NCBI GenBank assembly: GCA_900302705.1
Contig: OUUY01000013.1
Span: forward strand, 1 to 48,094
Length of the DNA stretch: 48,094 nt
Direction of reading: 5' to 3'
Source of the DNA: Candidatus Sulfobium mesophilum
Lineage (GTDB): Bacteria > Nitrospirota > Thermodesulfovibrionia > Thermodesulfovibrionales > UBA6898
The translations under genes were made by a program, and so were the position numbers. Numbering within the stretch: position 1 is the first letter of the stretch; every line of letters starts with the position of its first letter. Positions 11,625 through 29,455 of this stretch are shown one piece after another. The notes under the pieces are model-generated. The model was given only the letters and a program-made list of their open reading frames with translations, ran no database searches and was not told where the DNA came from.

Positions 11625-11660
11625 TTAATGAAAGAGGCAGAATCTTCTGAGGATAGTATT

Positions 11661-13658: not shown

Positions 13659-13697
13659 GGCGAAGAGATTTCAGATGCCTTCAGAAGGGGAGAAATA

Positions 13698-15137
13698 ATG
13701 TCAGAAGAAAACATTTGTCCAGATGCAGAGAAACTTGATGGTACTCTGGCCGAAATGGGCGGAAGACGCAGCGAGTCGGCAACGTCCATAACTCATGCCG
13801 GTGACAACGGGCAGGAAATAGGACGCGCCATAGACATCCATTCGGCGCTCTGCTCGATGCTTCAATGTTCTCATGAGGACTCGATAAATAATATCCTGAC
13901 ACACGCACTTCAGCTTATACTTTCTATCCCGTGGCTTGCCTTTGAATCAAGAGGAAGCATCTTTCTCTCCGAGGGCAACGACTCCAAAGGCCTTGTTATG
14001 AAGGTCCAGGCAGGGCTTCCAGAGGCGCTGAGGAAGCACTGCCGGCATGTCCCCCCGGGCACGTGCCTCTGCGGCCGCGCCGCCCTGACTCAGAAAACGC
14101 AATTTGCCGCTTGCCTGGATGAACGCCACGAAATCGAACATGAAGGGATGGGTCCGCACGGACATTACTGCGTGCCCATAGTTTATGGCGGGAAAACGCT
14201 GGGCGTGATAAACGTATACGTCAGAGACGGGCATCTCCGTGACAAAAGGGAGGTGGAATTCCTTAATGCGATGGCCAATGCCCTCGCCTGGACGATCGAG
14301 TACCAGAGGACCAGGACGACTCTTCACGAGAAGGAGTCCCGGCTGAGCAAGATCATGGCGGGGTTTGAGGGGTTTTATTATGTGAGCTCAGACGATTATA
14401 TTATCGAGTTCATGAACGGCAAGTTGATCGAGCGCACCGGGCATGATGCAACCGGAGAGGTCTGCTATAAGATCATGCACAGGCGCAATGCGCCATGTCC
14501 ATGGTGTGAAAAGGACAGGGTGTTAAAAGGCGAGACAACCCGGTGGGAGATGCAGGACCCTCGCGACAACCGCTGGTATTATGTGGTCAACGCGCCTTTG
14601 CGCTGGCAAACCGGCTCTGTCGCGAGACAGTCTGTAATACTGGACATTAGCGAGATAAGGCAGGTAGAGGAGGCGCTGCTCGAATCGGAGAGGCTTCAAA
14701 GGGCCAGGACCCAGGAACTCATGGAAAGCAATGCCGCACTTAAAGAGCTGATGAAGCAGATCGAGCAGGAAAGAAAGGCATTTGAAGGGAGAGTGCTTTC
14801 GGACTTCAGGAAGCTGATCCTGCCTTATATCGGCAAAATCAGAAACTCTGACAAGGAAGCAGACGCGGCCATTTACCTCGATACCCTCGAATTGAACCTG
14901 AAGACAGTCATCTCGTCCTTTTCTCCGGAGCTGTCCCTTGGCTTCGCTGATCTGACACAGAAGGAAAAGCAGATAGCTAATTTAATCAACGAGGGAAAAG
15001 GCAGCGCGGAAATAGCAAAAATTCTCAACATGTCCAGGGAAACGATAAAAAGCCACCGCCAGAATATACGGAGAAAGCTGGGGATAAAGGGCGGCAAGGC
15101 AAACCTGAAATCCTTCATCGCGCTTCATATAAAATAG
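13698..15137 (+). CDS. GAF-PAS-LuxR transcriptional regulator
   Basis: The protein has 479 aa and no receiver domain. A GAF-like domain (~50-200) carries Cys and His at conserved-looking positions (PPGTCLCGRAA, GPHGHYCVPIVYGGKTLGV). A cysteine PAS follows (~218-320; CYKIMHRRNAPCPWC), then a helical linker almost matching that of the 10.2 kb regulator (QELMESNAALKELMKQIEQE), and a LuxR-type HTH (~416-479; LTQKEKQIANLINEG, MSRETIKSHRQNIRRKL). Ligand or redox input to GAF/PAS probably controls DNA binding. The ATG has GGGGAGAA upstream. It lies 40 bp after the HD-GYP gene, likely in the same transcript, and immediately precedes the cytochrome cluster it may control. Confidence 0.88.
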   Translation: MSEENICPDAEKLDGTLAEMGGRRSESATSITHAGDNGQEIGRAIDIHSALCSMLQCSHEDSINNILTHALQLILSIPWLAFESRGSIFLSEGNDSKGLVMKVQAGLPEALRKHCRHVPPGTCLCGRAALTQKTQFAACLDERHEIEHEGMGPHGHYCVPIVYGGKTLGVINVYVRDGHLRDKREVEFLNAMANALAWTIEYQRTRTTLHEKESRLSKIMAGFEGFYYVSSDDYIIEFMNGKLIERTGHDATGEVCYKIMHRRNAPCPWCEKDRVLKGETTRWEMQDPRDNRWYYVVNAPLRWQTGSVARQSVILDISEIRQVEEALLESERLQRARTQELMESNAALKELMKQIEQERKAFEGRVLSDFRKLILPYIGKIRNSDKEADAAIYLDTLELNLKTVISSFSPELSLGFADLTQKEKQIANLINEGKGSAEIAKILNMSRETIKSHRQNIRRKLGIKGGKANLKSFIALHIK

Positions 15138-15365: not shown

Positions 15366-16157
15366 ATGAAAAAGATGCTGATTCTAATTGTAGCGATGCT
15401 CTTTGTGGCAAGCGCTGCCTACGCGACAATCCCGGGCTCAGCCCATGACCTTAGCCCTGCTGGGCCGGCTATGAATGCCCATGGCACCACTAGCTATCAG
15501 AATACCGATACCCTTGGCATATCGGCATGCCAGTACTGCCATACCCCTCACCAGGCAGATATTTCTGATCAGTCCAGGCCGCTCTGGAACAGGAACATGC
15601 CTGCAGCAGCCAACTTTAAGGTATATGACAGCGGTAACGCAGCTGGTGGTGTAGCAGGCGTAGCCGGTAAGACCCTTTCAGGTACCGACGTTAACCCTCC
15701 GGGCGGTCACTCGCTCTCCTGCATGAGCTGCCATGACGGCGTAACCGGGCTAGGCGACATCCATCTGGGCGGCGACACTATTGGAACCTACGATGGAAAT
15801 CCGGGCGGTATCAAGATGGAAGCCATCTATGCCAACGCGGCCGGCGTTACGGTACCAAGGACCCTCGGGACAGACCTGAGAAGCACCCACCCTGTGGGCG
15901 TTAATTGGCGTGGTATTGCCGCAACGTATGCGGGTCTTGACGCCGGCGCTCCTGCACAGCTTAATGGCGTAAGCAGCGTTTTCACAGTCGGCGCGGGCGC
16001 CATTTACAGGGTCTATGTTGACGGCGCGGATAAGAGGGTTGAGTGCGGTTCATGCCACGATCCTCACGGCAGTGACTATGCCGCAGCTGCTGCGAATTCT
16101 CCGTTCCTTAGGGGCCCAAAGTCATCGATGTGCACGACCTGCCACAGCAGGAAATAG
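15366..16157 (+). CDS. secreted tetraheme c-type cytochrome 1
   Basis: The protein has 263 residues with a signal peptide ending near AYA. Four heme motifs are present (CQYCH, CMSCH, CGSCH, CTTCH), plus extra His in SAHDLS, CHTPHQ, STHPVG and CHDPHG that can supply distal ligands. The pattern SAHDLS...CHTPH...PLWNR...SCHDG...GTDLRSTHPVG...GSCHDPHG recurs in two further proteins here. Family layout and size recall the small tetraheme cytochromes that include filament-forming OmcE-type proteins; that link is inference from memory. The ATG has GAAAGGAG 7 nt upstream. It is followed by a strong hairpin terminator and a close paralogue. Confidence 0.87.
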   Translation: MKKMLILIVAMLFVASAAYATIPGSAHDLSPAGPAMNAHGTTSYQNTDTLGISACQYCHTPHQADISDQSRPLWNRNMPAAANFKVYDSGNAAGGVAGVAGKTLSGTDVNPPGGHSLSCMSCHDGVTGLGDIHLGGDTIGTYDGNPGGIKMEAIYANAAGVTVPRTLGTDLRSTHPVGVNWRGIAATYAGLDAGAPAQLNGVSSVFTVGAGAIYRVYVDGADKRVECGSCHDPHGSDYAAAAANSPFLRGPKSSMCTTCHSRK

Positions 16158-16169
16158 CAACGCTCCGGA

Positions 16170-16197
16170 AAAGGGGTGGAAGAAATTCCACCCCTTT
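16170..16197 (+). terminator. intrinsic terminator after tetraheme cytochrome 1
   Basis: A 12-bp perfect stem (AAAGGGGTGGAA / TTCCACCCCTTT) closed by a GAAA tetraloop, then TTT-rich sequence. Partial read-through into the paralogue downstream is possible because the T-tract is short. Confidence 0.75.
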
Positions 16198-16288
16198 GTC
16201 TTAAGTTCCCCCTCCCTCATAAAAATAGCGCAGCGTGTAGCGTGTAGGGTGTAAGAAGGCAAAATGATAAATAAGGAAAGAGGCACGA

Positions 16289-17080
16289 GTGAAAAAAGCA
16301 GTCATACTAATTTTAGTCTCAACCTTAGCCTTAACCTTATTCGTCGGCGTTGCCTTTGCCTTGATCCCCAATTCAGCTCATGACCTATCAGGAGGGGGAT
16401 TTGCAAACGGAGGGCTTGGGATAAATGCTTGCCAATATTGTCACACCCCTCACCAGGCCAACAACAGAGACAATATTATCAACGGGGTTCAGGTGGATAT
16501 GTCGAGCGTTCCTCTATGGAACAGGTCTTTGCCTACAACTGTTTATAACCTCTACAACAGCGGCGGCAACCCGCCGGGAGCCTGGAAGACCCTCTCCGGC
16601 ACGACGGTGACCCCCCCCGGCGCGCATTCGTTGACTTGCCTGAGCTGCCATGACGGCACAATCGGTTATCGCGATGTTTTATTGGGCGGCGATGCCATTG
16701 GGACCTATCTCGCAAACCATCCCGATCCAAATCCAGCCAATTACATGCCACCCTCCGGAGTCGGCTCCAGGGGGTATATCGGCACAGACCTGAGAAATAC
16801 CCATCCTGTCGGAGTGGTTTACAACGATATCGCCCACAACGCTAATTCGGTGGCAGGGCTTTCGAACGTCAGCGCCGCGCTTAACGGCCTGACAAATATC
16901 TATACAGTAGGAGCAGGCGCCAAATACAGGATCTATGGGGGCACTATAGGCACGGGCAGGGTGGAGTGCGGTTCATGCCATGACCCGCACGGCGACGACT
17001 ATCAGCACGGCGGCGCCAACGCCCCATATCTCAGGGGCGCAAAGGCCGATATGTGTACGGACTGCCATTCGAGGAAATAA
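16289..17080 (+). CDS. secreted tetraheme c-type cytochrome 2
   Basis: A tandem paralogue of the preceding gene, also 263 aa, starting at GTG 16289 with GGAAAGAGG upstream. Signal peptide core is ILVSTLALTLFVGVAFA. The heme motifs are CQYCH, CLSCH, CGSCH and CTDCH, with the same accessory His pattern (SAHDLS, CHTPHQ, NTHPVG, CHDPHG). Both tetraheme proteins end CHSRK. Insertions between motifs 1-2 and 2-3 distinguish it from copy 1. It is probably periplasmic or cell-surface and part of the same electron-transfer cluster. The 131-bp gap before it contains the terminator and a low-complexity GTAGCGTGTAGGGTGTAAG stretch. Confidence 0.87.
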   Translation: MKKAVILILVSTLALTLFVGVAFALIPNSAHDLSGGGFANGGLGINACQYCHTPHQANNRDNIINGVQVDMSSVPLWNRSLPTTVYNLYNSGGNPPGAWKTLSGTTVTPPGAHSLTCLSCHDGTIGYRDVLLGGDAIGTYLANHPDPNPANYMPPSGVGSRGYIGTDLRNTHPVGVVYNDIAHNANSVAGLSNVSAALNGLTNIYTVGAGAKYRIYGGTIGTGRVECGSCHDPHGDDYQHGGANAPYLRGAKADMCTDCHSRK

Positions 17081-17102
17081 TAAAGTATCGGCAGCGGTTT
17101 GT

Positions 17103-17142
17103 GGGCAAAAAAAAGGGGGAAGAAATTCCCCTTTCTTTTTGC
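17103..17142 (+). terminator. intrinsic terminator after tetraheme cytochrome 2
   Basis: GGCAAAAA followed by AAAGGGGGAA, a GAAA loop, then TTCCCC and TTTCTTTTTGCC form a long stem with built-in T-tract. It uses the same GAAA loop as the terminator 930 bp upstream, consistent with tandem gene duplication. Confidence 0.8.
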
Positions 17143-17250
17143 CGTAAAACTGATAAGTGCATTGCTAAGTCCTGAGATATTTGGTTTTACCAATGAAATC
17201 TTCTGTAGGATTCTTTCGTTCTGCGAATAAAGAGTGATTTTTGTAGAAGA

Positions 17251-17323
17251 AATAGCTATACAGGCTCCCTGTTTTGTGGCTATTTTGAGCTACTGTAATT
17301 CTCTTGCCCCAAATGCTATATTC
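17251..17323 (+). promoter_or_regulatory. recurrent upstream element, copy C
   Basis: AATAGCTATACAGGCTCCCT, then TGGCTATTTTGAGCTACTGT, then about 20 bp to GCTATATTC (17315-17323). It is one of the two best-conserved copies (with E). The PpiC gene starts only 24 bp after the -10-like box. Confidence 0.7.
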
Positions 17324-17346
17324 CCAAATAGAGAAAGGAGCATAAA

Positions 17347-18363
17347 GTGGACGATAGATATTTTAGTAAGCCCATAGGTAACAACATTTTAACCTTCTTG
17401 AACTTTTTCCCCTTTTTTGCCTTTTTAACCTTCTTGAACTTTTTCCCCTTTTCTTCTTTTGCTTGGTCGGAAGAAAAAGACATTGTTGCCAGAGTAGGTG
17501 ATGCAGTGATAACTGCGCCGGAGCTTGAGAACGCGCTGCAGAAGTATGTGCCCCCAGGAAGCATGCACGGGAGCATGGACCCATCGAAGAAGGAAAAATA
17601 CAGGAAGAATGCCCTCAATGACCTTGTGGAGGTAGAGCTTCTCTACCATGAGGCGAAGTCAAGGGGGATGAAGGCCTCAAAGGACGCGGTCGATAAGGCG
17701 GTCGAGGAAAATATGAAGAGGCTCGGCTCTGAAAAAAAGCTCAAGAATGCCCTGAAGAAAGACGGGATGACGCTCGACTCTTACAGGGAAAAGCTCGGCA
17801 AATACGAGATGGCCAACGCAGTCGTGGCGGCTGTCGTGAAGGAGACGGAATATTCCGAGGAGGAGTTAAAAGACTATTACGAAAAAAACAAGGAGAGATA
17901 CAAGAAACCCGAGGCGATGCAGATATGGCATATTCTTGTGCAGGTCGACCCTAGTGCCTCAGAGGAAGAATGGCTAAAGAAGAGGGATTACGCCCTGCAG
18001 CTTTATCAGAAAATCAAGGACGGCGAGGATTTCCGCAGCGTTGCCTACAAATATTCGGAGGAGGCCTGGAAGGTCAAGGAGGGGGATCTCGGTATTCTTC
18101 ACAGGGGACAGTTGGAGCAGGAGATCGAGGACGTCGCCTTCTCGCTTAAAGAAGGAGAGGTCAGCCAGCCTATACGGACCTACAGCGGCTTTCATATCGT
18201 CAAGGCCGGCGAGAGAAAGCCCGAGACGCAATTGAGCTTCGAGGATGCTAAGAATAGGCTGCGAGATGAGCTCCACGAGAAGAGGTTCAAGGAGAAAATG
18301 GCAGCCCTCTTTGAAAGGCTCAGGGGAAAATATCCAGTGAAAATATATCTAAATAATAAATAG
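17347..18363 (+). CDS. SurA/PpiC-type peptidyl-prolyl isomerase, periplasmic
   Basis: The protein has 338 aa. A long hydrophobic N terminus contains FLTFLNFFPF twice, encoded by a 36-bp tandem duplication, and acts as signal peptide (cleavage near SFAWS). A SurA_N-like helical chaperone region (~45-170; VARVGDAVITAPELENAL) precedes one parvulin domain (~190-290; IWHILVQVD, SEEAWKVKEGDLG, YSGFHIVKAGE). It likely helps fold the outer-membrane barrel encoded next. GTG 17347 has AAAGGAG six nt upstream. The first ~13 codons lie in sequence shared with the leader of the 29.8 kb cyclase gene, so the N terminus appears to have been built from a duplicated promoter region. Confidence 0.88.
   Translation: MDDRYFSKPIGNNILTFLNFFPFFAFLTFLNFFPFSSFAWSEEKDIVARVGDAVITAPELENALQKYVPPGSMHGSMDPSKKEKYRKNALNDLVEVELLYHEAKSRGMKASKDAVDKAVEENMKRLGSEKKLKNALKKDGMTLDSYREKLGKYEMANAVVAAVVKETEYSEEELKDYYEKNKERYKKPEAMQIWHILVQVDPSASEEEWLKKRDYALQLYQKIKDGEDFRSVAYKYSEEAWKVKEGDLGILHRGQLEQEIEDVAFSLKEGEVSQPIRTYSGFHIVKAGERKPETQLSFEDAKNRLRDELHEKRFKEKMAALFERLRGKYPVKIYLNNK
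17387..17452 (+). repeat. tandem 36-bp duplication in the PpiC signal peptide
   Basis: A 30-nt unit (TTTTAACCTTCTTGAACT plus TTTTCCCCTTTT) occurs perfectly at 17387-17416 and 17423-17452. The 36-nt period keeps frame and adds 12 residues to the hydrophobic core. Confidence 0.9.
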
Positions 18364-18401
18364 GTTAAAGCTAAGATTAAGGTTAAGAGAAAAGGTTAAG
18401 G
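18363..18401. repeat. GGTTAAG-type low-complexity repeat
   Basis: Degenerate repetitions of GGTTAAG/GATTAAGG follow the PpiC stop. A similar stretch lies at 21917-22010, and the complement (CTTAACC) appears in several signal-peptide coding starts nearby. Confidence 0.6.
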
Positions 18402-18491
18402 AATAAAGACCAGGTTGAGGCTGAGTGGCAAGGCAGATAAGGTGAGCCTGAACGTTGCAATAGAGTGTTCATTCTTCAAAGTCATAGAATC

Positions 18492-18601
18492 TGTCATTCC
18501 GGCTTGTCCTGAATCTTTCCTATTCCCCTCTTGGGAGGGGTGTAGGGATGGGTTTGTCCTCGACGAGCAAGGACAGGCTGCGTTTGCTTGCAGGAATGAC
18601 A
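18492..18601. mobile_element. MITE-like 110-bp inverted-repeat element
   Basis: The ends TGTCATTCC and GGAATGACA are inverted copies. Inner arms contain TTGTCCTG and the inverted match CAGGACA-like sequence, with an internal CCCCTCTTGGGAGGGG hairpin. It has no coding capacity. Its right end lies 5 bp before the first candidate start of the barrel gene, so it may have displaced that gene's original leader. Confidence 0.55.
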
Positions 18602-18605
18602 ACTG

Positions 18606-20540
18606 GTGTGGAGTTCTCAATTTGTGAACTCCTTCTTCCGTCGGAAATATCCTGAAGGTTCAGCTCCCGTAACCTTAATCTTAACCTTTGCCTTGACCGC
18701 AGCCTATTATTTTGTCTTTCCGGACATCGCTTTCCCTTTGGGCTACGGCGTGCCTTCACGCTATTTTACCAATGCCTTCCTTCTTACGGGCGAGATCGAT
18801 CTCGTTTATGACAAGAGATGGTCATCTGTTCCCGAATCCGACCAGCAGATATTTACGCATACCTACCGCCTCGGACTCGAAGGGTTCGTCATAGACAGGA
18901 GGCTCATATCCTTTGATCTTGCAGGCTCATTCTCACAGGATATATACAGTCCGGGCGAGACGATTACAAGCAGGGGCTTCCTGGCGGATTTTTCCTTCCT
19001 GAACGAACGACCGAGGAAGGGTTTTCTAACGAACCTGCCACAGCCGATTGATCTCAGATATTCCAACTTTGTCACAGGAGACCAAAAGACACAAAGTTAC
19101 GGCGTGAGCCTCACATACAGGCCGACCGAAAACCCTCTCTTTAGCTGGCTGATTATCCGGCGGGAGACGGAAAAGTTCCTTAAGGAGCTTAGGAGACAGC
19201 AGGAGGCCGCGACAAAGAAGAAGAAGGAGGAAGAGGAAGAGGAATCCGAGGAGCCTGCCGAAGAAAAGAAGACCCCCGAGGTCAAGCAGGAGGAGCAGCA
19301 ACTCCCGCCAAAACCGGAGACCGGCCCCTTCCTCGAATACCCGACCCTTCTTCTCGATTATGACAAATACAAAGATGAGTTCTCCAATAACAGTACCGAT
19401 ACTGACCGTTTCGACGTAAGGGCGATTTCATCGAATAAGAATGTCGACCTGCAGGCTGAGTACCTCTATTATAAGTTGGGCGGCTCGGTGACCAATAAAT
19501 ACCAAGACCTCGAGCTAAAGGCCGATCTTCATTTCTATGACGACAAGACGACCGAGAGACTTGACGTACTGAACAGGGTTATACTGAAGGACGAAAACGG
19601 TGTCGAGTCTCTTAGTCTGAGGAACCTCACCACCTGGCAAAAATACGTAGGTGAACGAAAAAAGGATTTGCTTTCCTTTTGGGGAAACGGCGATTATTTC
19701 AAGTCAGACATCTCAGAGAACCACGATGTGGGGGTAACCGGCGCCTACTCCAAGGTTTTCAGCCCAAGGTTAAGGGACGATGTCAAAGTGCATTACGATC
19801 AGGGCCGCACTGATGCAGGACCTGTTTATGACGCCAATGTCGATAACAGCATTAGTTATATCCTGTCAAAGATCTTTACGGTGACAAACCTGTTGTCTGT
19901 CGGACAGACGGAGCTCGGCGCCAGTTATGAAGCCGGGCTCGGTCTGACTGTAACTACGAAGCCTGTCATTGCAGTGATGAATTATTTTTACTCGAGCTCC
20001 GCTTTAGACGAGGGCAGGCAGAATTCTCACAGGCTTGACCTGACAGTCACAGGGAGGCTTGCGAGGAATCTGTCTTTTCAATCAAGGAACTATTTCCGTA
20101 TTTCGGACGTGAAGGGAACCGAACCTTTCAAAGTGAGGGGCTTCGATCTCAGGACGGATTTTTATTGGAACATATCGAGGTACCTTATCAATTTCGGGGT
20201 GAGCGAAACGACACTGCATGAAACCACCGGCCAGACCGCCGGGGCTGAAATCGCTGGCGTCCCGCAATCCACTTCTTTCCGGAGCACCTCGCTTTATTCC
20301 AATATCTCGACCTATCTCTGGCGAAATATGTTCATGACCCTTGCGACCTCGTACACGACGAGCTCTGAAGGGGAGACCACTTTAGACATCCACCCGATTC
20401 TAAACTGGCATGTGAGGCAGACCACCTTAAGCGCAGAGTACGAGATGATCAGAAGGTCCGGCACAACCAGCGTCACGGACCAAAGGGTCTTGATAAGACT
20501 GACAAGGGTCTTCGAAAAATTAGTAAAACGTTTTTGGTAA
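18606..20540 (+). CDS. outer-membrane beta-barrel protein of the cytochrome cluster
   Basis: The protein has 644 aa from GTG 18606; GTG 18624 (VNSFFRRKYPEG) is an alternative. After an N-terminal hydrophobic export signal (LILTFALTAAYYFVF) come many alternating-residue beta segments (LISFDLAGSFSQDIY, VDLQAEYLYYKLGG, LNWHVRQTTLSAEYEMI), and the chain ends in Trp, as barrel proteins often end in an aromatic residue. A Lys/Glu/Pro-rich stretch (~195-238) interrupts the barrel and is probably a periplasmic loop. By size and context it could be the porin that wraps cytochromes in a porin-cytochrome conduit, with PpiC upstream as its folding helper. No sequence family is recognised; the barrel call is from pattern only. 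Confidence 0.7.
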   Translation: MWSSQFVNSFFRRKYPEGSAPVTLILTFALTAAYYFVFPDIAFPLGYGVPSRYFTNAFLLTGEIDLVYDKRWSSVPESDQQIFTHTYRLGLEGFVIDRRLISFDLAGSFSQDIYSPGETITSRGFLADFSFLNERPRKGFLTNLPQPIDLRYSNFVTGDQKTQSYGVSLTYRPTENPLFSWLIIRRETEKFLKELRRQQEAATKKKKEEEEEESEEPAEEKKTPEVKQEEQQLPPKPETGPFLEYPTLLLDYDKYKDEFSNNSTDTDRFDVRAISSNKNVDLQAEYLYYKLGGSVTNKYQDLELKADLHFYDDKTTERLDVLNRVILKDENGVESLSLRNLTTWQKYVGERKKDLLSFWGNGDYFKSDISENHDVGVTGAYSKVFSPRLRDDVKVHYDQGRTDAGPVYDANVDNSISYILSKIFTVTNLLSVGQTELGASYEAGLGLTVTTKPVIAVMNYFYSSSALDEGRQNSHRLDLTVTGRLARNLSFQSRNYFRISDVKGTEPFKVRGFDLRTDFYWNISRYLINFGVSETTLHETTGQTAGAEIAGVPQSTSFRSTSLYSNISTYLWRNMFMTLATSYTTSSEGETTLDIHPILNWHVRQTTLSAEYEMIRRSGTTSVTDQRVLIRLTRVFEKLVKRFW

Positions 20541-20600
20541 TACATAACAAACATGGCAAATAGGGTAAATTAGTCTAAAAAAGGTTCAAAAAGAGGTAGT

Positions 20601-20753
20601 ATGATTAGGAAGTTTGAAGAGATTGTTGCCTGGCGGAAGGCTAGAGAGCTTTGCAAGTGTGTTTATACGATGCCTAAAAATAATATCTCCCCTTTCGTAA
20701 AGGGTACTCCGCTGTCTCCCCCTTTGGCAAAGTGGGATGAATGGGGATTTTAA
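20601..20753 (+). pseudogene. truncated four-helix-bundle (S23-like) protein remnant
   Basis: The frame starts with a good ribosome site (GAGG) and MIRKFEEIVAWRKARELCK, the typical opening of four-helix-bundle proteins of the 23S-intervening-sequence type (usual length ~120 aa). After 24 codons it runs into a CCCC/AAAGGG intergenic repeat and stops at 50 codons. It is probably a dead fragment cut by repeat insertion. Confidence 0.6.
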
Positions 20754-20806
20754 AGATGAATGGATTGACAAAATCTCCCCTAACCCCTCTTTACCAGAGA
20801 GGGAAA
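20682..20806. repeat. composite TCTCCCCTTT / AAAGGGG palindromic repeat
   Basis: Three related units (AATATCTCCCCTTTCGTAAA, CCCCCTTTGGCAAAGTGGG, AAAATCTCCCCTAACCCCTC) form small inverted repeats. Similar CTCC...AAAGGGG sequence occurs at about 26593-26640. They resemble dispersed intergenic repeats and interrupt the four-helix-bundle fragment. Confidence 0.55.
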
Positions 20807-20845
20807 AGAAGAAAAGAACTCAAAAATCAAGGGCGCGAAATTCAA

Positions 20846-21919
20846 ATGAAATCGCTTAACCTGGTTAAACTGTTTAAACAATTGAACGTGTTGAAACTAT
20901 CGAACCTTCTTAAACTTCTTACCCTTGTTGCATTTATAAGCGGTTGCGCGTCGGCAGGGCATGTTATAATCGACAAAGAGGCAATGGACAGGATTCTTTG
21001 GCCTGGGCCTCCGGAGACACCGAGGATCAAGTATCAGTGGAGTCTCTCTGTTGTTTCGGGGAAACAGAACGGCGGCCTTTACGAATTGATAATGGGCAAT
21101 GAAGGAGACTTTGCCGACCCGCGCTCATCGCCGAAGCTCTTGAGACCTTACAGCCTGCATGTTGACGGAGACAACCTTTATATAGCCGACACGGGCGCTT
21201 GCAGAGTGACGGTAATAGATATGAAGGAACTGAAGGCGCGAAATATTACCAGTGCGGGCGATAAGGAATTTCTCGCCCCCGTCGCGGTGGTAGCATTCGA
21301 AGGCATGACCTACGTGAGCGATTCCCTGCTCAAGAAGGTTTTCATATTCGACAAGGATGGCCGGCTTTCGGGCGAGCTCAAGGGCACTTTTCAGAGGCCT
21401 ACGGCTCTGGCCATAGATAAGAAAAGAAGGATCCTTTATGTTTCCGACACACCTGCCCACGTAGTGGGCAGATTCGGCCTCACGGGCGCCAGCCTCGGCA
21501 ACCTGGGCAGGAACGGCTCGGACGAGGGGGAGTTTAACTTCCCGACTCATCTCTGGGTCGATGACCAGGGAAGACTCTACGTTACGGACGAGTTGAACTT
21601 CAGGATACAGATGTTCTCTTCCGAAGGAAAATTCATAGGCATGTTCGGGGCCCCTGGTGACGCCCCGCAGAACTTTCAGAGGCCGAAGGGCATCGCCACG
21701 GACAGCGACGGCGACGTCTACGTCGTGGATTCCGTGAAAGACACAATAAAGATTTTCAGCAGGCAGGGGGAATTGCTGCTGTTTTTCGGACAGGAGGGAA
21801 GGGGCTACGGCGATTTCTATCTGCCCTCAGGCATATTTATAGGCGCTGATGATATTATCTATATTGCCGATACATATAATGGAAGGGTGCAGGTTTTTCA
21901 ATATATGAAGAAAAAATAG
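20846..21919 (+). CDS. NHL-repeat six-bladed propeller lipoprotein 1
   Basis: About 357 aa from ATG 20846. The lipobox is LVAFISGC, so it is membrane-anchored. An open frame upstream (from 20741) only translates the intergenic repeat and is discarded. After a short WPGPPETPRIKYQWSLS segment shared with the 25.3 kb protein come six NHL-type blades (LYIADTGACRVTVID, TYVSDSLLKKVFIFD, LYVSDTPAHVVGRFG, LYVTDELNFRIQMFS, VYVVDSVKDTIKIFS, IYIADTYNGRVQVFQ). Such propellers commonly accompany surface cytochromes; a scaffolding role is inference. It sits between the barrel and the third tetraheme gene, all on the + strand with short gaps. Confidence 0.87.
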   Translation: MKSLNLVKLFKQLNVLKLSNLLKLLTLVAFISGCASAGHVIIDKEAMDRILWPGPPETPRIKYQWSLSVVSGKQNGGLYELIMGNEGDFADPRSSPKLLRPYSLHVDGDNLYIADTGACRVTVIDMKELKARNITSAGDKEFLAPVAVVAFEGMTYVSDSLLKKVFIFDKDGRLSGELKGTFQRPTALAIDKKRRILYVSDTPAHVVGRFGLTGASLGNLGRNGSDEGEFNFPTHLWVDDQGRLYVTDELNFRIQMFSSEGKFIGMFGAPGDAPQNFQRPKGIATDSDGDVYVVDSVKDTIKIFSRQGELLLFFGQEGRGYGDFYLPSGIFIGADDIIYIADTYNGRVQVFQYMKKK

Positions 21920-22010
21920 GCTAAGGGTGAGAAAAAAATACAGGTTAAGGAAAAGATAGGTTAAGGTTGAGATGAAAAAATATAGGTTAAGAATAAGACA
22001 GGTTAAGGTC
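21917..22010. repeat. GGTTAAGG low-complexity tract entering the next gene
   Basis: Repeated AGGTTAAGG / TAGGTTAAG words run from the NHL stop through the start of the tetraheme gene, so residues 1-12 of that protein (KKYRLRIRQVKV) are encoded by the tract. Confidence 0.6.
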
Positions 22011-22775
22011 TGGAAAGAACCGTTCACCTTTACCTTCACTTTTGTCTTAATCTTGACCGTATACGTGTTCTTTTCTTCTTCCGTCTTTGCTCATAGTATT
22101 GTCAACACGAGGCATAATCTCTCTGCGACCGGGACGGGGCCGATAAGGGCCGTTGCGGAACAGGAGGTCTGTGTCTTCTGTCATACCCCGCATTCCACCC
22201 AGTTGGTCACTCCTCTTTGGAACCACACGATGAGCGCGGCAGTATATAAGCTGTATTCAAGCGTTACTCTCCTAAGCCCGACGAGCCCTGCCATTCAGCC
22301 CGACAGGAGTTCGAAGTTATGCCTCTCCTGCCACGATGGTACGGTTGCGCTGGGCTCTGTTGTGAACCTGGGTGGGTCGGCGACCACCATATCGATGCAG
22401 CAGGCAGGCACTACGATTGCTACCCTTCCGCCGACTTCACCAGCCTATTTAGGCACCGATTTAAGCGGGCATCATCCAGTGTCCATAGAGGTGAACGCCA
22501 ACTTGGTAACTGACAAACAGACCCAGTGCAATGCAGGCACAGTTACGTATAAGGTATGCCCGCCTTTGCCCGGCCAGCCGGTAAGGCTTAGGCCGACCGA
22601 CAATGCTTATGGCGCGAGTGTCTCTCCCCGAATGGGGGTCCAGTGCACTTCTTGTCATGACCCTCACAGCGACCCGAACCCTCCGAGGTCGGTATTTCTA
22701 AGGGTGGGGGATGCCAACAATACAGATCAATTATGCACGACATGCCATGTGGATTGTTACGCAGCCTGCCCGTGA
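21972..22775 (+). CDS. secreted tetraheme c-type cytochrome 3
   Basis: The protein has 267 aa. The basic N terminus and hydrophobic core (FVLILTVYVFFSSSVFA) give a signal peptide. Heme sites are CVFCH, CLSCH, CTSCH and CTTCH. The order NTRHNLS...CHTPHS...PLWNH...SCHDG...GTDLSGHHPV...TSCHDPHS matches tetrahemes 1 and 2, so this is a third, more divergent member. It ends unusually in CHVDCYAACP, two extra cysteines after the last heme. The RBS is weak because the GGTTAAGG tract occupies the leader. Confidence 0.85.
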   Translation: MKKYRLRIRQVKVWKEPFTFTFTFVLILTVYVFFSSSVFAHSIVNTRHNLSATGTGPIRAVAEQEVCVFCHTPHSTQLVTPLWNHTMSAAVYKLYSSVTLLSPTSPAIQPDRSSKLCLSCHDGTVALGSVVNLGGSATTISMQQAGTTIATLPPTSPAYLGTDLSGHHPVSIEVNANLVTDKQTQCNAGTVTYKVCPPLPGQPVRLRPTDNAYGASVSPRMGVQCTSCHDPHSDPNPPRSVFLRVGDANNTDQLCTTCHVDCYAACP

Positions 22776-22873
22776 AGAAAGGGTGTAAGGAATAAGAGGA
22801 CAGGGTGTTGGGAATATGGCGTCAGATGAAAAAGATAAAGAATTGAATACAAGATTGGAAACGGAGGCTCAAG

Positions 22874-24019
22874 ATGAATAGGGAATGTCTCCATTCTTTG
22901 TTCCCTGCCCCCTACACCCTTATACACTGCACCCTGCTTATGGTGTTCTTCTTTTCACTTAGTTTGAGTTATGCCGTTGGTCCGAGCCATCTTGACAAGA
23001 ACAAGGTGTCTACGGGATGTGCGACCTGCCATAAAGGACACGGCACGCGCGGAACGACCCTGCTCGAAAGCCCGAAGGACAACCTGTGCTTTAAGTGCCA
23101 CGGAGGCGCAGGGAAGGCAAAAGACGTATACTCGGTTATTGTGAAGCCGTCGAACCATCCCATTATACAGACCTCTCGTTACCATGTGACGGGTGAGACG
23201 CTCCCGGAAAGGGAAGGCTCCGTCCCGAGGCATGCCTCCTGTTACGACTGCCACACCACTCACAGGTCTGAAAAGGGAAACGCAGTCAAAGGGATGAAGG
23301 GATATACCGGCAGGGGCGCAGGGATAAAGCAGATAAGCGGTGAGTATCAGGTATGCTATAATTGTCATTCCGACAGCGCCAACCTCCCGCCGGAAAAAAA
23401 CATAGCCACCGCTTTTTCTCCCTCCAACGCATCATATCATCCGATAGAGACCTACGGGAAGAATTCATTTGTGCCGAGTCTTAAGAGAGAATACACTGCC
23501 TCGAGTATCATAAAATGTTCGGACTGCCACGGCAATGATGACCCCTCAGGCGCTCAGGGCCCCCACGGGTCTATCTATGTGCCGATATTGAGGGATAGAT
23601 ATGAAAGGGAAGCCGGGCTTGAGAGCCCTTCGACATACGCCTTATGCTACCGGTGCCATAACAGGACGAGTATACTCAACAACGAAAGTTTCAAGACACA
23701 CAAGGAGCACATTGTCTTTAATCAGACGTCGTGCGCCTTTTGTCATAATGCGCACGGGAGCGCGACACACCGGAATTTGCTCAATTTCGACATGAGCCTT
23801 GTCTTTCCCAACAACAAAGGGGAATTGAGTGTCATGGCGTCTGTTCCTGGAAAGCCCCGGTGCTTTCTTTCCTGTCATGTCAAGGGAAAGACGTTCGATC
23901 ACATGCTCAGTGGGCCTAACATGTCAAAAATGTCGAGCAGTCAGTCTCTGCAATCAAGAGCAACCGGCAGCCGGCCCCTGCAATATTGTGTCAACAACAG
24001 ATGCGTACCGAATTGGTAA
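22874..24019 (+). CDS. multiheme c-type cytochrome with seven CXXCH and one CX3CH
   Basis: The protein has 381 aa; ATG 22874 is preceded by GGAGG. Signal peptide core is TLLMVFFFSLSLSYA. Canonical heme sites are CATCH, CFKCH, CYDCH, CYNCH, CSDCH, CYRCH and CAFCH. An eighth site reads CFLSCH, a CX3CH spacing. Many free His can act as distal ligands (HKGHG, TTHRS, NAHGS). The C-terminal ~45 residues are Ser/Arg-rich with two cysteines. It probably sits in the periplasm or on the outer surface and passes electrons within the cluster. The start of the signal sequence is encoded by a CCCTACACCC-type low-complexity stretch, complementary to intergenic GGGTGTAG repeats. Confidence 0.86.
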   Translation: MNRECLHSLFPAPYTLIHCTLLMVFFFSLSLSYAVGPSHLDKNKVSTGCATCHKGHGTRGTTLLESPKDNLCFKCHGGAGKAKDVYSVIVKPSNHPIIQTSRYHVTGETLPEREGSVPRHASCYDCHTTHRSEKGNAVKGMKGYTGRGAGIKQISGEYQVCYNCHSDSANLPPEKNIATAFSPSNASYHPIETYGKNSFVPSLKREYTASSIIKCSDCHGNDDPSGAQGPHGSIYVPILRDRYEREAGLESPSTYALCYRCHNRTSILNNESFKTHKEHIVFNQTSCAFCHNAHGSATHRNLLNFDMSLVFPNNKGELSVMASVPGKPRCFLSCHVKGKTFDHMLSGPNMSKMSSSQSLQSRATGSRPLQYCVNNRCVPNW

Positions 24020-24441
24020 AAATGTTATGGGGATTAGAGCGCCGGGGCGCTACTTGCCGCGTCTTTCGATGGCGTCAAGCCGTTTTGTGGTAGCTCTTGA
24101 TCCTAACCCTTCCTCTACAGCGGTCCGTACCGTAATTAAGTTACTGATCCGCTTATTTCCTTGGATCGAAAGAATTTAAGACTAATCTCTTGTCTGTCTT
24201 GCATAATTTCATGACCTTTTGCTGAGTATCTCGATGAGAAATGAAGAAAGACAGAAGGCGACAGCAGATACTGACGAAAGAAAACAATTGTTCTCAATAA
24301 AAAGAGCTAATCCTTCTCCCCTATTTATCGCTATTTTGAGCTACTTCAACTCCCCTGTCACAAATGCTATATTCATTCTTAGAGATGAATTCTGGAGAGG
24401 ACTACAGTTAATTAAGCAAGCCCGTACGAACTGGAGGGTCT
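24020..24441. other. intergenic region before the nonaheme cytochrome
   Basis: 422 bp with no supported gene. Its right half contains copy D of the recurrent element and a leader resembling those after copies C and E (AAGCAAGCCCGTACG). The left half shows nothing recognisable. Confidence 0.6.
24303..24374 (+). promoter_or_regulatory. recurrent upstream element, copy D
   Basis: AGAGCTAATCCTTCTCCCCT, then ATCGCTATTTTGAGCTACTT, then 20 bp to TGCTATATTC (24365-24374). The second half is nearly identical to copies C and E. It lies 68 bp upstream of the nonaheme cytochrome start. Confidence 0.68.
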
Positions 24442-25230
24442 ATGAATGGCAGAGTTGTTGAAAATAATCCCGGAATCGGCACAATCACTTCGAGATGTGT
24501 CGTCTTGCTCATATCTTCAATAGTTGCCTCGCTGCTAGGCATTACGTGCAGGTCTGCTTACGGGGAAGCCGAGTGCCAGCAGTGCCACAAGGAGCTAACG
24601 AGAAAGAAGATCGTCCACGCGGCGGTAAAGAAGGGATGTTCCGTCTGTCATTCGGCAATAGATGCGGCAGATATTCCCCACAAAAAAAAGAATACGATAA
24701 CAAAGGGTCTAGCCGCCGAAGTCCCGGCCCTCTGTTTCCAATGCCATGATAAGAAAAAATTCGAGAACACAACAATTCATCCCCCTGTCAAGGACGGCAT
24801 GTGTCTGGCGTGTCATTCACCTCATAATTCGGACAATGGAAAACTCCTCCAGTCTGCTGTCCCCGACCTTTGTTTCAACTGCCACGACAAAACCGAATTC
24901 ACGAAAAAAAACGTCCATCCGCCTGTTATGGCGGGATGCTTCGATTGTCATGCTGCCCATGCATCCAAGTACACTTCCCTGACAGTGAAGGCACAGACTG
25001 CCCTCTGTACGGCCTGCCATACAGCGCCGGAGATTAAGAACGGGATTCATATCATGAGAGGCTTTGCAGCACCCGGACATCCTGTGAGCGGCAAGACGGA
25101 CCCCAAGAGGCAGGGAAAGAGGTTTTCTTGCGCCAGTTGTCACCAGCCTCATAGCTCGGATTTTAGAAAACTCGTGAGGTATAAGAACGATACGCCCTTT
25201 GAGATCTGCATAAGTTGTCATCCGAAATAA
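24442..25230 (+). CDS. nonaheme c-type cytochrome (doubled-CXXCH type)
   Basis: The protein has 262 aa from ATG 24442 with GGAGGG seven nt upstream. Signal sequence core is VVLLISSIVASLLGI. Nine CXXCH motifs: CQQCH, CSVCH, CFQCH, CLACH, CFNCH, CFDCH, CTACH, CASCH, CISCH. There is about one heme per 25 residues, with repeating units of the type IHPPVKDGMCLACHSPH and VHPPVMAGCFDCHAAH, the hallmark of doubled-CXXCH proteins. Such dense hemes imply a wire-like periplasmic carrier. It has its own copy of the shared control element and is probably co-transcribed with the NHL lipoprotein that follows. Confidence 0.88.
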   Translation: MNGRVVENNPGIGTITSRCVVLLISSIVASLLGITCRSAYGEAECQQCHKELTRKKIVHAAVKKGCSVCHSAIDAADIPHKKKNTITKGLAAEVPALCFQCHDKKKFENTTIHPPVKDGMCLACHSPHNSDNGKLLQSAVPDLCFNCHDKTEFTKKNVHPPVMAGCFDCHAAHASKYTSLTVKAQTALCTACHTAPEIKNGIHIMRGFAAPGHPVSGKTDPKRQGKRFSCASCHQPHSSDFRKLVRYKNDTPFEICISCHPK

Positions 25231-25310
25231 GGAACAGGGTGTAGCGTATATCGTGTGGGAACAAAAGATGCGTTTTACAATTTTGGTTTTTCATGGAGGA
25301 TAAGAAACGT

Positions 25311-26480
25311 ATGAGAAGGGTCAGTCGGTTAATTTTGAAGATATTTAGTAACAGGCGTTGGTTTTCCGCGGCTCTGCTGGCAGCTATGCTCGCATCCTGT
25401 GCACCCACTGTGGAAAAGAAGGTTTGGGATCTTACCTGGCCTCTTCCGCCTGACGAGCCGAGGATAAAATATGTCGAAATCCTGCAGTCCAGCGCCGATG
25501 TCGGGGAACAGGGAGGAGTAGCGGAAGCCCTGTTCGGCAGCGATGTCATGGTCCTTTCGAAGCCCTACGGGGTTGCAGTTGACAAAGAGGGAAGGGTCTT
25601 TGTCACGGACGCGGGAGCGGTTTTTGTTTTTGACAAGAAGAATAGAAAATTCAGCATGATAGGAGTCGAACCGGGAGTGGGAAAGCTTAATACTCCGGCA
25701 GGGGTTGCAGTTTCAAAAGTCGACGGGAGGGTCTACGTCACTGATATAGGGTTGAAGCGACTATACATTTACGACAGGGAAGGCAAGTATCTAAATGCTA
25801 TCGGGAAGGAAAACGAATTTACAAACCCGATTGGTGTTGTGGTCGATGATAAGAGAGGGAGAGTGTATGTTGTTGATTCAAAGAAACGCAATGTCAGGGC
25901 CTATTCAACTGATGGGCGTTTCATCATGGACATAGATCTGGCGAAAGACGGTCTGAAGTATTTCCATACCCCGACAGAGCTCGCCCTTGACAGCGTGGGG
26001 AACATTTATGTGAGCGACACACAGGCCTTTTCGATTAAGATTTTTGATCCCGACGGAAATTTTCAGAAAATCATCGGTAAATTAGGCGATGTCCCCGGGA
26101 ACTTTGCCAGGCCAAAAGGGGTCGCGTTAGATTCGGAGGATCATATGTACGTTGTTGATGCCGCTTTTAACAACTTCCAGATATTCAATAAGGAGGGTCA
26201 GGTACTTCTTTTTGTCGGCGCGGGAGGCAGTAATCCGGGGGAGTTCAACTTGCCCGCAGGTATCGCGATCGACGATGAGGACAGGATTTACGTTACCGAG
26301 CAGTACAACGCAAGGGTCCAGGTCTTTCAGTATATGAGCGAGAAGTGGAAGCGGGCGCATCCGGACCTGTGGGAAAAGGCGCAGCAGGTCAGCAGGGAGG
26401 CGCCTGTCAAAAAAGAGGACCCGCCGGAAAAGAAGGCGCCGGTCAATAAAGAGGATAAGGCCGAAGAAAAAGCGGAGTAG
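25311..26480 (+). CDS. NHL-repeat six-bladed propeller lipoprotein 2
   Basis: About 389 aa from ATG 25311 (GGAGGA at 25295-25300); ATG 25293 is the alternative. Lipobox LLAAMLASC. The segment WPLPPDEPRIKYVEILQ and six blades (VFVTDAGAVFVFD, VYVTDIGLKRLYIYD, VYVVDSKKRNVRAYS, IYVSDTQAFSIKIFD, MYVVDAAFNNFQIFN, IYVTEQYNARVQVFQ) make it a clear paralogue of the 20.8 kb protein. It differs by a charged Lys/Glu/Pro tail of ~35 residues (EKKAPVNKEDKAEEKAE). Probably periplasm-facing or surface-exposed and associated with the cytochromes. An intergenic GGGTGTAGCG stretch precedes it. Confidence 0.87.
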   Translation: MRRVSRLILKIFSNRRWFSAALLAAMLASCAPTVEKKVWDLTWPLPPDEPRIKYVEILQSSADVGEQGGVAEALFGSDVMVLSKPYGVAVDKEGRVFVTDAGAVFVFDKKNRKFSMIGVEPGVGKLNTPAGVAVSKVDGRVYVTDIGLKRLYIYDREGKYLNAIGKENEFTNPIGVVVDDKRGRVYVVDSKKRNVRAYSTDGRFIMDIDLAKDGLKYFHTPTELALDSVGNIYVSDTQAFSIKIFDPDGNFQKIIGKLGDVPGNFARPKGVALDSEDHMYVVDAAFNNFQIFNKEGQVLLFVGAGGSNPGEFNLPAGIAIDDEDRIYVTEQYNARVQVFQYMSEKWKRAHPDLWEKAQQVSREAPVKKEDPPEKKAPVNKEDKAEEKAE

Positions 26481-26881: not shown

Positions 26882-27925
26882 TTGAGCATACTATTAATTT
26901 TTAGGGTAGTGAGATATATATCGGCGCTGATGGCGACGGCGTTAGTTTGGCTCCTGCTCGGCATGGCTTACCTCGATCACTTCGTTAAACCCTTTGACAA
27001 ACTTATACCCTGGATGATGCCGTGGAAAAGGACGTACGATTCCGCTGCCGGGCCGGCAACTCTGGAGAAACGTATTTTGATGATGCAGGACTACCTCGAT
27101 GCGTCCAATAAGGCGGCAAATTATGCGTTCTTGATTATCCTTTTTTCCTTTGCCGCAATATGCGTGTATCTTACCCTTGTGTATCAGCAGAAACAAAGAA
27201 GATCAAAAGAAAACGCATTGCTTTCACTGAAGAATCAGGAGATCGCGCGGCGCAATGAATTTATTCGCTACATCTCGGCCACCATAGGTCATGAATTTAA
27301 AAATAACGTCGGGAGGATAAAGCGTCGGCTTGATCTGCTCCCCGAACTTCCTCTTGATGCCAGGAGGCGTATTGAAGACAACCTTGACAAACTCTTTGCC
27401 GATATCGACATTTTTAAAAAAATCTCGGATGAACGGGAAGCCGGACTGATAGATTTTGCGAAGGTCGATCTGGGAGAAATGCTTGCCGACCTGGTCAGCC
27501 AATACAGTGATTTCGCTCATTTCAATTATGAGGGATGGGTGTCCCCTCCCTCGATCTTTGCATCACGCACCCTGTTAAGGACGGTTTTCGAAAACCTGAT
27601 AGACAATTCCATAAATTATAAAAAACCCGGGCAGACCCGTGCTAATATCAATCTGTCATGCTCCCTGGATATTGATGCGAAGCGGCGTTATGTTTCCCTG
27701 TCATTCCGGGACGAGGGAATCGGAATGGATGAAAAAGGGGCGGACCAGTGTTTTTATAAAGGTAAGGGCAGTCAGTCGGGTTGGGGTCAAGGCCTCTATT
27801 TTGCCAAATATGTGATCGGACTCCATGCCGGGAAAATCAGGACCGGCAAAGAATATACGGCCTTAGGGGTAGGCACCGAGATGATCATTCATCTGCCATT
27901 TGTTGAGGAGGCCTTGAATGTTTAG
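26882..27925 (+). CDS. two-span membrane histidine kinase of the HEPN-receiver operon
   Basis: 347 aa from TTG 26882 (GTG 26909 is the alternative; neither RBS is strong). TM1 (~12-32) and TM2 (~80-100) flank a ~45-residue periplasmic loop too short for a usual sensor fold. After a coiled coil comes an unusual H-box, SATIGHEFKNNVGRIKRRL, keeping the acceptor His. The ATPase has N-box FENLIDNSINY, G1 FRDEGIGMDEKG and G2 GWGQGLYFAKYVI. It is expected to phosphorylate the receiver protein encoded next, with which it overlaps by 8 bp. What it senses is unclear; the small third gene may supply the periplasmic input. Confidence 0.85.
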   Translation: MSILLIFRVVRYISALMATALVWLLLGMAYLDHFVKPFDKLIPWMMPWKRTYDSAAGPATLEKRILMMQDYLDASNKAANYAFLIILFSFAAICVYLTLVYQQKQRRSKENALLSLKNQEIARRNEFIRYISATIGHEFKNNVGRIKRRLDLLPELPLDARRRIEDNLDKLFADIDIFKKISDEREAGLIDFAKVDLGEMLADLVSQYSDFAHFNYEGWVSPPSIFASRTLLRTVFENLIDNSINYKKPGQTRANINLSCSLDIDAKRRYVSLSFRDEGIGMDEKGADQCFYKGKGSQSGWGQGLYFAKYVIGLHAGKIRTGKEYTALGVGTEMIIHLPFVEEALNV

Positions 27926-28808: not shown

Positions 28809-29455
28809 TGAAAGAAGAGAGTATCAGGAAATTTATCCTGCCTCCGGGGCCGATACTGAGCATCCTGCTCATAGGCCTGCTGCTTCTGAGTGTGCTTCTG
28901 TATTATCGGGCCATAACAATACAGAGGTTTTTCGAGCCTGCGCTCGCCATGACTCAGCCGAGAATAAAATTTTCTAATAACATCAACAACCTGCTCTTAA
29001 AAGAATTCGGTAAAGAGGAAATCAAAGGTATAAAGTTCAAGACCGGCTCAATTCTTATTGAACAATCCATGTTATTTCCTGATACACAAAACATAGACGT
29101 GGCAGAACCGGTAATCCTGGAGAAGTTAGGCCATGTTATTCTGTCTGCCCTAAGTGACCCTGATATCAGGGACAATATCAGCCTTATCATAGTCATTACA
29201 AGGTTCCCGCTCAATTCCGGCATAACGTCCAATAAGGAGCTCAGATATCAGCTGCAGAGGCGGGCCGAATTGATACGGGAATCCCTCTTTTCGATAGAGC
29301 CGCAGCTCGAAGAGAAATACGGGACATACTTTGCAGCCACTGCAATGGCGGTGGATCCCACGGTGAAAGAGACCAACTGGATAGAATTCCGGATAATATC
29401 CACCGAGATGCTGCATATAGAGGTACTCAAGAGGTTAGAAAAATATGCGCATTAA
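28808..29455 (+). CDS. single-span periplasmic OmpA/MotB-like protein
   Basis: 215 aa. The ATG overlaps the receiver gene's stop (TAATG), so it is translationally coupled. One N-terminal membrane segment (~15-35, ILSILLIGLLLLSVLLYY) leaves about 175 residues in the periplasm. The region IIVITRFPLNSG...SNKELRYQLQRRAELIRE resembles the OmpA/MotB segment in which GHTD is followed by SN-x-LS-xx-RA, but the GHTD-like signature is degenerate, so peptidoglycan binding is uncertain. No MotA-like partner is nearby. It may present periplasmic or cell-wall status to the kinase two genes upstream. Fold assignment is tentative. Confidence 0.65.
   Translation: MKEESIRKFILPPGPILSILLIGLLLLSVLLYYRAITIQRFFEPALAMTQPRIKFSNNINNLLLKEFGKEEIKGIKFKTGSILIEQSMLFPDTQNIDVAEPVILEKLGHVILSALSDPDIRDNISLIIVITRFPLNSGITSNKELRYQLQRRAELIRESLFSIEPQLEEKYGTYFAATAMAVDPTVKETNWIEFRIISTEMLHIEVLKRLEKYAH

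Follow-up and report, generated by a model that had tools for sequence, protein, structure and literature searches.

The route by which electrons leave extracellular cytochrome filaments and enter the cell is, according to the excerpted text of one account, not well understood in Geobacter (PMC10553843). A gene cluster of Candidatus Sulfobium mesophilum bears on this question, and its conserved gene set hints at how cytochrome wires may plug into the cell. In the window, by which we mean the whole 48,094-nucleotide stretch of contig OUUY01000013.1 that was analysed, an ORF survey found a run of nine ORFs, all on the + strand, between positions 15366 and 26480 (Table 1). Heme motifs are far more frequent in this genome than expected by chance, the pattern TGYN6TGYCAY occurring at 534 sites on the two strands versus 98 for the backward pattern. 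A preliminary description had read the run as an extracellular electron-transfer conduit and proposed a search for the same gene order; locus comparison shows that this order is common to many genomes. The cluster probably builds a cell-surface electrical wire together with its outer-membrane feed. More specifically, we put at about one in two the probability that tet1 and tet2 form the wire, that the barrel and the nonaheme form the electron path across the outer membrane and that tet3 and the octaheme form a docking adaptor.

Table 1. Features of the cytochrome cluster, with positions in the window.
Feature	Position	Strand	Evidence
tet1, free-type OmcE-family tetraheme, candidate wire subunit	15366..16157	+	4 CXXCH; 7tfs_A match; free clade
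terminator-like hairpin 3' of tet1	16171..16200	+	-24 kcal/mol, z -5.4
tet2, tandem paralogue of tet1, GTG start, candidate wire subunit	16289..17080	+	4 CXXCH; groups with tet1
terminator-like hairpin 3' of tet2	17112..17139	+	-24.5 kcal/mol, z -4.5; consensus scan agrees
SurA/PpiC-type peptidyl-prolyl isomerase	17347..18363	+	PF00639 E 9e-23, PF13624 E 3e-16
predicted outer-membrane beta barrel, start codon uncertain	18606..20540	+	AlphaFold2 model; structural matches
NHL1, beta-propeller lipoprotein	20741..21919	+	PF01436 E 1e-24; lipobox-like ISGC
tet3, octaheme-linked OmcE-family tetraheme, candidate adaptor	21972..22775	+	4 CXXCH; linked/fused clade
octaheme	22874..24019	+	7 CXXCH + C-terminal CX3CH
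nonaheme, MtrA/DmsE-like, candidate barrel-inserted or periplasmic electron carrier	24442..25230	+	9 CXXCH; 6r2q_A profile match
NHL2, beta-propeller lipoprotein	25293..26480	+	PF01436 E 1e-31; lipobox-like LASC

Geobacter OmcE makes filaments (PDB 7TFS), in which, as far as the excerpted source describes them, heme 2 is ligated by a histidine from the next subunit (PMC12203936); their helical rise is given as 34 A (PMC12954529). Tet1 matches 7tfs_A over nearly its full length (E 1.1e-19), and a profile holding tet1, tet2 and tet3 matches PDB 7tfs with an E value of 4.3e-59. Four CXXCH motifs and four further histidines are kept in the same order in the three tetrahemes and in OmcE. Across 47 domains, OmcE among them, every CXXCH of the four and three of the further histidines are invariant, while the fourth histidine is present in 44. 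By their sequences, tet1, tet2 and tet3 are members of the OmcE family, homologous along the chain, as had been proposed. They share with the Geobacter filament this homology and the frame of hemes and histidines; they differ from it in their divergent sequences, and in that tet3 is tied to an octaheme. Where the common motif pattern described earlier has HPVG, tet3 reads HHPVS.

The three tetrahemes had been presented as paralogous filament candidates. Tet1 and tet2 remain so; they are 57% identical over 210 columns and share one starred branch. Tet3 falls instead in a linked/fused group of 15 (support 91/95 in the first tree, with class labels assigned from context). In a 120-row tree from which duplicate tetraheme domains were dropped, octaheme-linked and other tetrahemes are separated by 2 changes, against a shuffled mean of 40. 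On these trees the tetrahemes of the window are of two kinds, the free-standing tet1 and tet2 and the octaheme-partnered tet3 in another clade. Three equal filament paralogues are ruled out by this placement of tet3. OmcE-like pentahemes, which have a fifth CXXCH, are placed outside the octaheme-linked group.

The two kinds also differ at their 3' ends. Tet1 and tet2 end in CHSRK, resembling the ends of solved OmcE-type chains. With fused and PDB rows left out, the chain stops at most 4 residues past heme 4 in 33/33 free copies versus 9/34 linked ones, and it does likewise in both solved chains. Tet1 and tet2 are each followed by a strong hairpin; such a hairpin lies 3' of 16/33 free and 0/34 linked tetrahemes, a comparison without fused, pentaheme and PDB rows or sites too near a locus end, and the position of linked copies inside operons alone may explain the contrast. 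Four sequence features, namely the clade, the linkage to the octaheme, the hairpin and the way the chain ends past heme 4, offer a means of telling candidate wire-type copies from candidate adaptor-type ones. Such a distinction would sharpen the prediction of wires in metagenomes, where paralogues are easily confused according to the extract of one study (PMC12977616).

Hairpins of their own fit a subunit made in excess. Together with the bare chain end shared with both solved chains and the retained OmcE frame, they argue against a filament-free porin-cytochrome conduit, which we regard as unlikely. The free tetrahemes would then be monomers at the outer surface, having the OmcE fold without polymerising, and would swap electrons with tet3-octaheme or with minerals. 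The presence of conduit parts (PpiC and NHL proteins, MtrA-like nonaheme, predicted barrel) agrees with such a conduit, as do the five octaheme genomes with a single detected tetraheme mentioned below and, in the excerpted text, the fact that of four Geobacter paralogues only OmcS is known to form a wire (PMC12977616).

The octaheme gene begins after a 99 bp gap from the end of tet3. Its product, described earlier as an eight-heme cytochrome, is indeed a multiheme protein, with seven CXXCH motifs and a CX3CH as eighth site. This motif lies past the last CXXCH in 34/34 distinct octahemes with a separate upstream tetraheme, in 12/12 without a linked tetraheme and in 27/29 fused ones; given this near-universal presence across the octaheme classes, the CX3CH probably represents a genuine heme site. 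Tet3 and the octaheme, separate genes here, are one fused protein of 11 CXXCH plus CX3CH in other genomes. An OmcE-like tetraheme lies directly 5' of the octaheme or is fused to it N-terminally in 48 of 60 loci, in two phyla. The fused class is by definition tetraheme-first, octaheme-first fusions being outside its scope. In long loci, 32/34 octahemes have an adjacent or fused tetraheme, versus 7/76 other multiheme ORFs (pentahemes excluded from this control rate). Five fused Nitrospirota regions chosen for long frames (L095-L099) are included in the long-loci rate and the trees, and stand outside the 60-locus tally. This linkage rule was not found in the literature searched. Structure prediction of a fused protein reached a pLDDT of 39 and was left out of the argument.

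The pairing is not obligatory, because 12/60 octahemes have no linked tetraheme and because, among 80 Nitrospirota octaheme genomes, counted from the best candidates of each genome only, five have one detected tetraheme and six none, while 69 have at least two. In the one genome that holds loci L063 and L091, no tetraheme lies 5' of the octaheme and one lies 3' instead. In the Geothrix type of locus (L026, L075), the tetraheme is found 5' of the barrel gene and not 5' of the octaheme. A search of plasmids for the octaheme gave no match. In a sample of 398 Pseudomonadota genomes (threshold 1e-40, at most five best candidates each), only the centre genome itself matched, and the unit is accordingly rare in that group.

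Cytochromes often exchange heme modules with one another. Tet3 could accordingly be a mere heme-extension of the octaheme, the 12-heme unit acting as a terminal surface reductase or oxidase whose OmcE-like part has no docking role; the unlinked octahemes, and the free copies that were not detected in every octaheme genome, would be in keeping with this. The idea seems rather improbable, as 15/15 linked or fused copies retain all four further histidines of the OmcE frame and the 69 genomes above hold another tetraheme of the family. The docking reading can be carried one step further, to a possible though doubtful proposal: the octaheme-linked OmcE-like domain would be a conduit-anchored, built-in first subunit of the wire, and free OmcE-type subunits would polymerise on the same heme-to-heme contact. 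If so, the fusion would also set the polarity of the wire, with its C-terminal (heme 4) end cellward, and the unit would be a general plug between wire and outer membrane in Nitrospirota, Acidobacteriota and some Pseudomonadota.

The remaining parts were largely as first described. PpiC (PF00639) and both NHL proteins score far above the Pfam cut-offs, and each NHL protein has a lipobox-like motif. The 644-aa protein starting at 18606, for which a barrel check had been named beforehand, matches no Pfam or NCBIfam family above cut-off. Its AlphaFold2 model (14 sequences) has about 24 long beta strands and a lysine/glutamate-rich helical insert, and confidence is modest (pLDDT 56, pTM 0.51). The structural matches of the model are outer-membrane barrels, including the usher PapC, and MtrB is not among the matches listed. 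This protein is thus predicted, with modest confidence, to be a large outer-membrane barrel. The nine hemes attributed to the next cytochrome were confirmed as CXXCH motifs; a profile of nine relatives matches 6r2q_A (E 7.1e-24), and the match to TIGR03508 (E 2e-22) is under the family cut-off.

Instead of conducting electrons, the barrel could mainly be a secretion channel for wire subunits, a role already proposed for the OmcS assembly machinery, with tet3-octaheme as plug, chaperone or gate and electrons entering the wire elsewhere. The PapC match is consistent with this, as is the gene block beside omcS (GSU2500-GSU2493), which the excerpted account ties to the maturation and secretion of OmcS wires (PMC12977616). 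The MtrA-like nonaheme in the same run, whose relatives share the cluster neighbourhood in many loci, suggests instead that electrons are transferred at the barrel. A mainly secretory role seems very unlikely, although the two roles are mutually compatible.

With its predicted barrel and MtrA-like multiheme, the run may resemble the MtrCAB conduit (PDB 6R2Q), but it has OmcE-type cytochromes instead of an MtrC/OmcA-family protein: no decaheme of that family was found in the run, TIGR03507 scoring at most 19.8 bits among the proteins listed (cut-off 209.3). The absence of a large outer-surface cytochrome noted earlier is true of the window, whereas in relatives, including L090 of the same genus, a 21-31-heme protein adjoins the cluster. 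A search of the present assembly, which is 83.8% complete, revealed no homologue of the 31-heme protein of L090.

The OmcS wire maturation and secretion cluster is the subject of Shen et al. 2025. Beside the wire cytochrome, this cluster reportedly has genes for channel proteins, a beta-propeller protein and a prolyl isomerase. Compared by description, the window has the same kinds of parts near its candidate wire cytochromes; its subunits are OmcE-type, and CXXCH counts of its ORFs revealed no hexaheme of the OmcS type. The undecaheme electron transfer complex (Uet) of Tenderiales and Gallionella comprises, in the excerpted description, tetraheme UetA, isomerase UetB, beta-barrel porin UetC, trihemes UetDEG, NHL proteins UetH/UetI and undecaheme UetJ (PMC10734462). 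Again by description, the window shares with it a tetraheme, a peptidylprolyl isomerase and two NHL proteins, and its predicted barrel may correspond to the porin UetC. UetJ has 11 CXXCH in a single gene, whereas the window has a split pair, tet3 (4) and the octaheme (7 plus CX3CH), together 11 CXXCH plus CX3CH; the fused tetraheme-octaheme fits published descriptions of UetJ. Relative to that description, the window lacks the trihemes UetDEG (it contains no triheme ORF of at least 60 aa by CXXCH counts) and adds the MtrA-like nonaheme and two free tetrahemes. The list of parts is already known from the Uet and OmcS-assembly clusters.

Two further systems are related. A Geoalkalibacter locus has an OmcE homologue, an MtoA homologue and two NHL proteins, the same trio of types as the window, and the excerpted account does not describe the octaheme partner present here (PMC12016550). 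In syntrophic sulfate reducers the OetABI conduit genes are grouped, as in the window, with putative wire cytochromes, OmcX/OmcS-like genes there, and each wire is proposed to work with a conduit; no octaheme-linked OmcE domain is described in the extract (PMC10553843).

What stands of the conduit reading are the OmcE-family tetrahemes, the predicted barrel, the MtrA-like nonaheme and the shared order; the equivalence of the three tetrahemes does not stand. The following picture is inferred as regards polymerisation and docking, where the parts sit and which way the electrons run. The run would encode an extracellular electron-transfer machine of the OmcE-nanowire type, in which tet1 and tet2 would be secreted as subunits from their own transcription units and polymerise into the wire, and PpiC would assist the folding of exported parts. 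The large barrel would cross the outer membrane, and on the side of the periplasm the nonaheme would supply the barrel with electrons or receive them from it. Many relatives have a single 12-heme protein of which tet3 and the octaheme are the two halves; the pair would be held with its OmcE-like end at the conduit, giving the wire a matching docking face, while the NHL lipoproteins would sit at the outer membrane and aid assembly. One gene family is a concrete candidate for the electron link between filament and cell.

All nine genes that the preliminary description had placed in this run are present and lie on the same strand. The PpiC and NHL proteins score far above the Pfam cut-offs, and general multiheme models are the sole family matches of the tetrahemes, the octaheme and the nonaheme. 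The octaheme, previously presented as an 8-heme cytochrome, has all eight sites, the last one being CX3CH instead of CXXCH. The window is one entire contig of a 2.77 Mb assembly that is 83.8% complete.

Coordinates of the gene cluster and of neighbouring features in the window
Feature	Coordinates	Remarks
Gene run	15366-26480	+ strand
tet1	15366-16157	4 CXXCH; free type
Hairpin of tet1	16171-16200	core GGAAGAAATTCC
tet2	16289-17080	4 CXXCH; free type
Hairpin of tet2	17112-17139	core GGAAGAAATTCC
PpiC isomerase	17347-18363	
Predicted barrel protein	18606-20540	644 residues
tet3	21972-22775	4 CXXCH; octaheme-linked
Octaheme	22874-24019	7 CXXCH, C-terminal CX3CH
Nonaheme	24442-25230	9 CXXCH
PAS/GGDEF protein	2922-5048	1 CXXCH
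Second octaheme	5060-6052	8 CXXCH; 11 bp after the PAS/GGDEF gene
Upstream sensory genes	7728-15137	two directly before the cluster (10108-11448, 13698-15137)
Downstream sensory genes	26882-41569	
Third NHL-repeat protein	41867-42619	fragment; then a small ORF with 1 CXXCH

Chain A of 7tfs, described as the OmcE filament (PMC12954529), aligned to tet1 over almost the full length (E 1.1e-19), and tet1 also matched 9yuq_N (E 4.8e-14). With a profile built from 28 relatives, these values became 4.3e-59 and 5.4e-47. The four CXXCH motifs and three of four further histidines are invariant in an alignment of 47 domains including both PDB chains, and the CHTPH histidine is retained in 44 of them. Heme 2 of OmcE is described as taking a ligand from the adjacent subunit (PMC12203936).

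The three tetrahemes had been proposed as paralogues. Their common OmcE family is confirmed, but they are not equivalent, as trees place tet3 in a class separate from tet1 and tet2. In a first tree (47 rows), octaheme-adjacent or -fused copies formed a single group of 15, including tet3, with a support of 91/95, and tet1 and tet2 were placed with a free copy from another Nitrospirota genome. In a wider set of 120 domains, 2 changes were enough to separate the 63 octaheme-linked copies from the other 57; the mean after shuffling was 40.

Both classes also differ downstream of the gene and at the chain end. Hairpins of about -24 kcal/mol lie 3' of tet1 (z -5.4) and tet2 (z -4.5), while no such hairpin follows tet3 (z 0.8) or the octaheme (z -0.1). 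The core sequence is the same in both hairpins, which suggests that the terminator was copied together with the tetraheme gene. Across loci, a hairpin with z < -3 follows 16 of 33 free copies versus none of the 34 that precede an octaheme; it was found after none of 12 tetrahemes located 3' of an octaheme and after 3 of 75 octahemes. At most four residues separate the last heme from the chain end in 33/33 free, 12/12 downstream and 9/34 octaheme-linked copies, and the terminal residue is K or R in 27/33, 11/12 and 1/34, respectively. Both solved chains (7tfs, 9yuq) terminate like free copies. Such a bare terminus next to the last heme would be suitable for stacking onto the next subunit.

Among the 30 best-scoring loci of the window's phylum, the window included, an OmcE-like tetraheme lies directly upstream of the octaheme in 28, is fused to it in one and is missing in one. 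In 30 Acidobacteriota loci, from a search whose centre genome was picked for having the fusion, the tetraheme is fused to the octaheme in 17, adjacent in 2 and missing in 11, giving 48/60 adjacent or fused loci when both samples are pooled. In 53 long loci, 32 of 34 octahemes have an adjacent or fused tetraheme. As controls we used the 87 other ORFs of these loci with at least 5 CXXCH, minus 11 OmcE-like pentahemes: among the remaining 76, one contains an OmcE-like domain (L004, a fusion interrupted by a stop) and 6 are preceded by a tetraheme. Exactly 11 CXXCH plus the C-terminal CX3CH occur in 23 of 29 distinct fused proteins.

The candidate undecaheme UetJ of the published undecaheme electron transfer complex (Uet) is described as carrying 11 or 12 hemes (PMC10734462). 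In the Pseudomonadota locus L139, an NHL protein is followed by two trihemes, a heme-free ORF of 675 aa occupying the place of the barrel, a second NHL protein and an 11-CXXCH protein built of both the tetraheme and octaheme domains. UetJ is thus probably the tetraheme-octaheme fusion. The parts list of Uet is similar to that of the window cluster, but the latter has neither the trihemes nor the single undecaheme gene and is therefore not classed as Uet. The cluster linked to maturation and secretion of OmcS wires also has a similar parts list. We found no description of an OmcE-like domain on the conduit-side cytochrome itself in the literature searched.

The protein announced as a barrel is predicted, with modest confidence, to form one, with about 24 long strands and a helical insert (pLDDT 56, pTM 0.51). 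The structural matches of the model are diverse outer-membrane barrels, including the usher PapC and the TonB-dependent FhuA. The top solved relative of the nonaheme profile is 6r2q_A (E 7.1e-24), given as MtrA in PMC12203936, though the molecule name in the entry differs. A conduit made of the barrel and the MtrA-like nonaheme is a reasonable reading of these models. In the favoured reading, electrons would pass between the inner membrane and a nonaheme located at the barrel, then to the octaheme, to the OmcE-like tet3 and, if tet3 serves as a docking point, to a polymer of tet1 or tet2 and finally a mineral, an electrode or a partner cell; flow may also run inward. Each filament has been proposed to work with a porin-cytochrome conduit (PMC10553843).

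In 295 sampled genomes of the phylum, the octaheme is present in 80, an OmcE-type tetraheme in 97 and both in 74. Among the 80 octaheme genomes, at least 69 have two or more tetrahemes, one was detected in 5 and none in 6; these numbers are lower bounds, as scoring covered the best candidates per genome. The five genomes with a single tetraheme show that the octaheme unit can occur without a detected free copy.

The absence of a large outer-surface cytochrome holds for this cluster, and no homologue of the large multiheme cytochrome of a same-genus relative was found in this 83.8%-complete assembly. It does not extend to relatives at the genus, family, order and class levels (L089-L093), whose clusters adjoin a cytochrome with 21-31 hemes (1173-1932 aa); in 4/5 of them, an NHL protein measuring 905-1062 aa stands before this cytochrome. 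In Nitrospirota loci L007, L009, L010, L011 and L015, the cluster is preceded by small 12-heme proteins (274-327 aa) arranged in tandem. A Geothrix locus (L026:16928-19972) has a 1014-aa ORF with 42 CXXCH near a free tetraheme. OmcE-like pentahemes, often in tandem, stand beside an NHL protein in Gallionellaceae-type and other Pseudomonadota (L017, L024, L025, L028, L029, L030, L032). The cluster or its NHL gene also occurs in records titled Campylobacterota and Bacillota (L001, L013, L016, L022); some of these titles may be binning errors, because in the free-tetraheme branch L022 hardly differs from L020, an Acidobacteriota locus. In the window itself, sensory genes (PAS, GAF, response-regulator and LuxR-type) lie on both flanks of the cluster.
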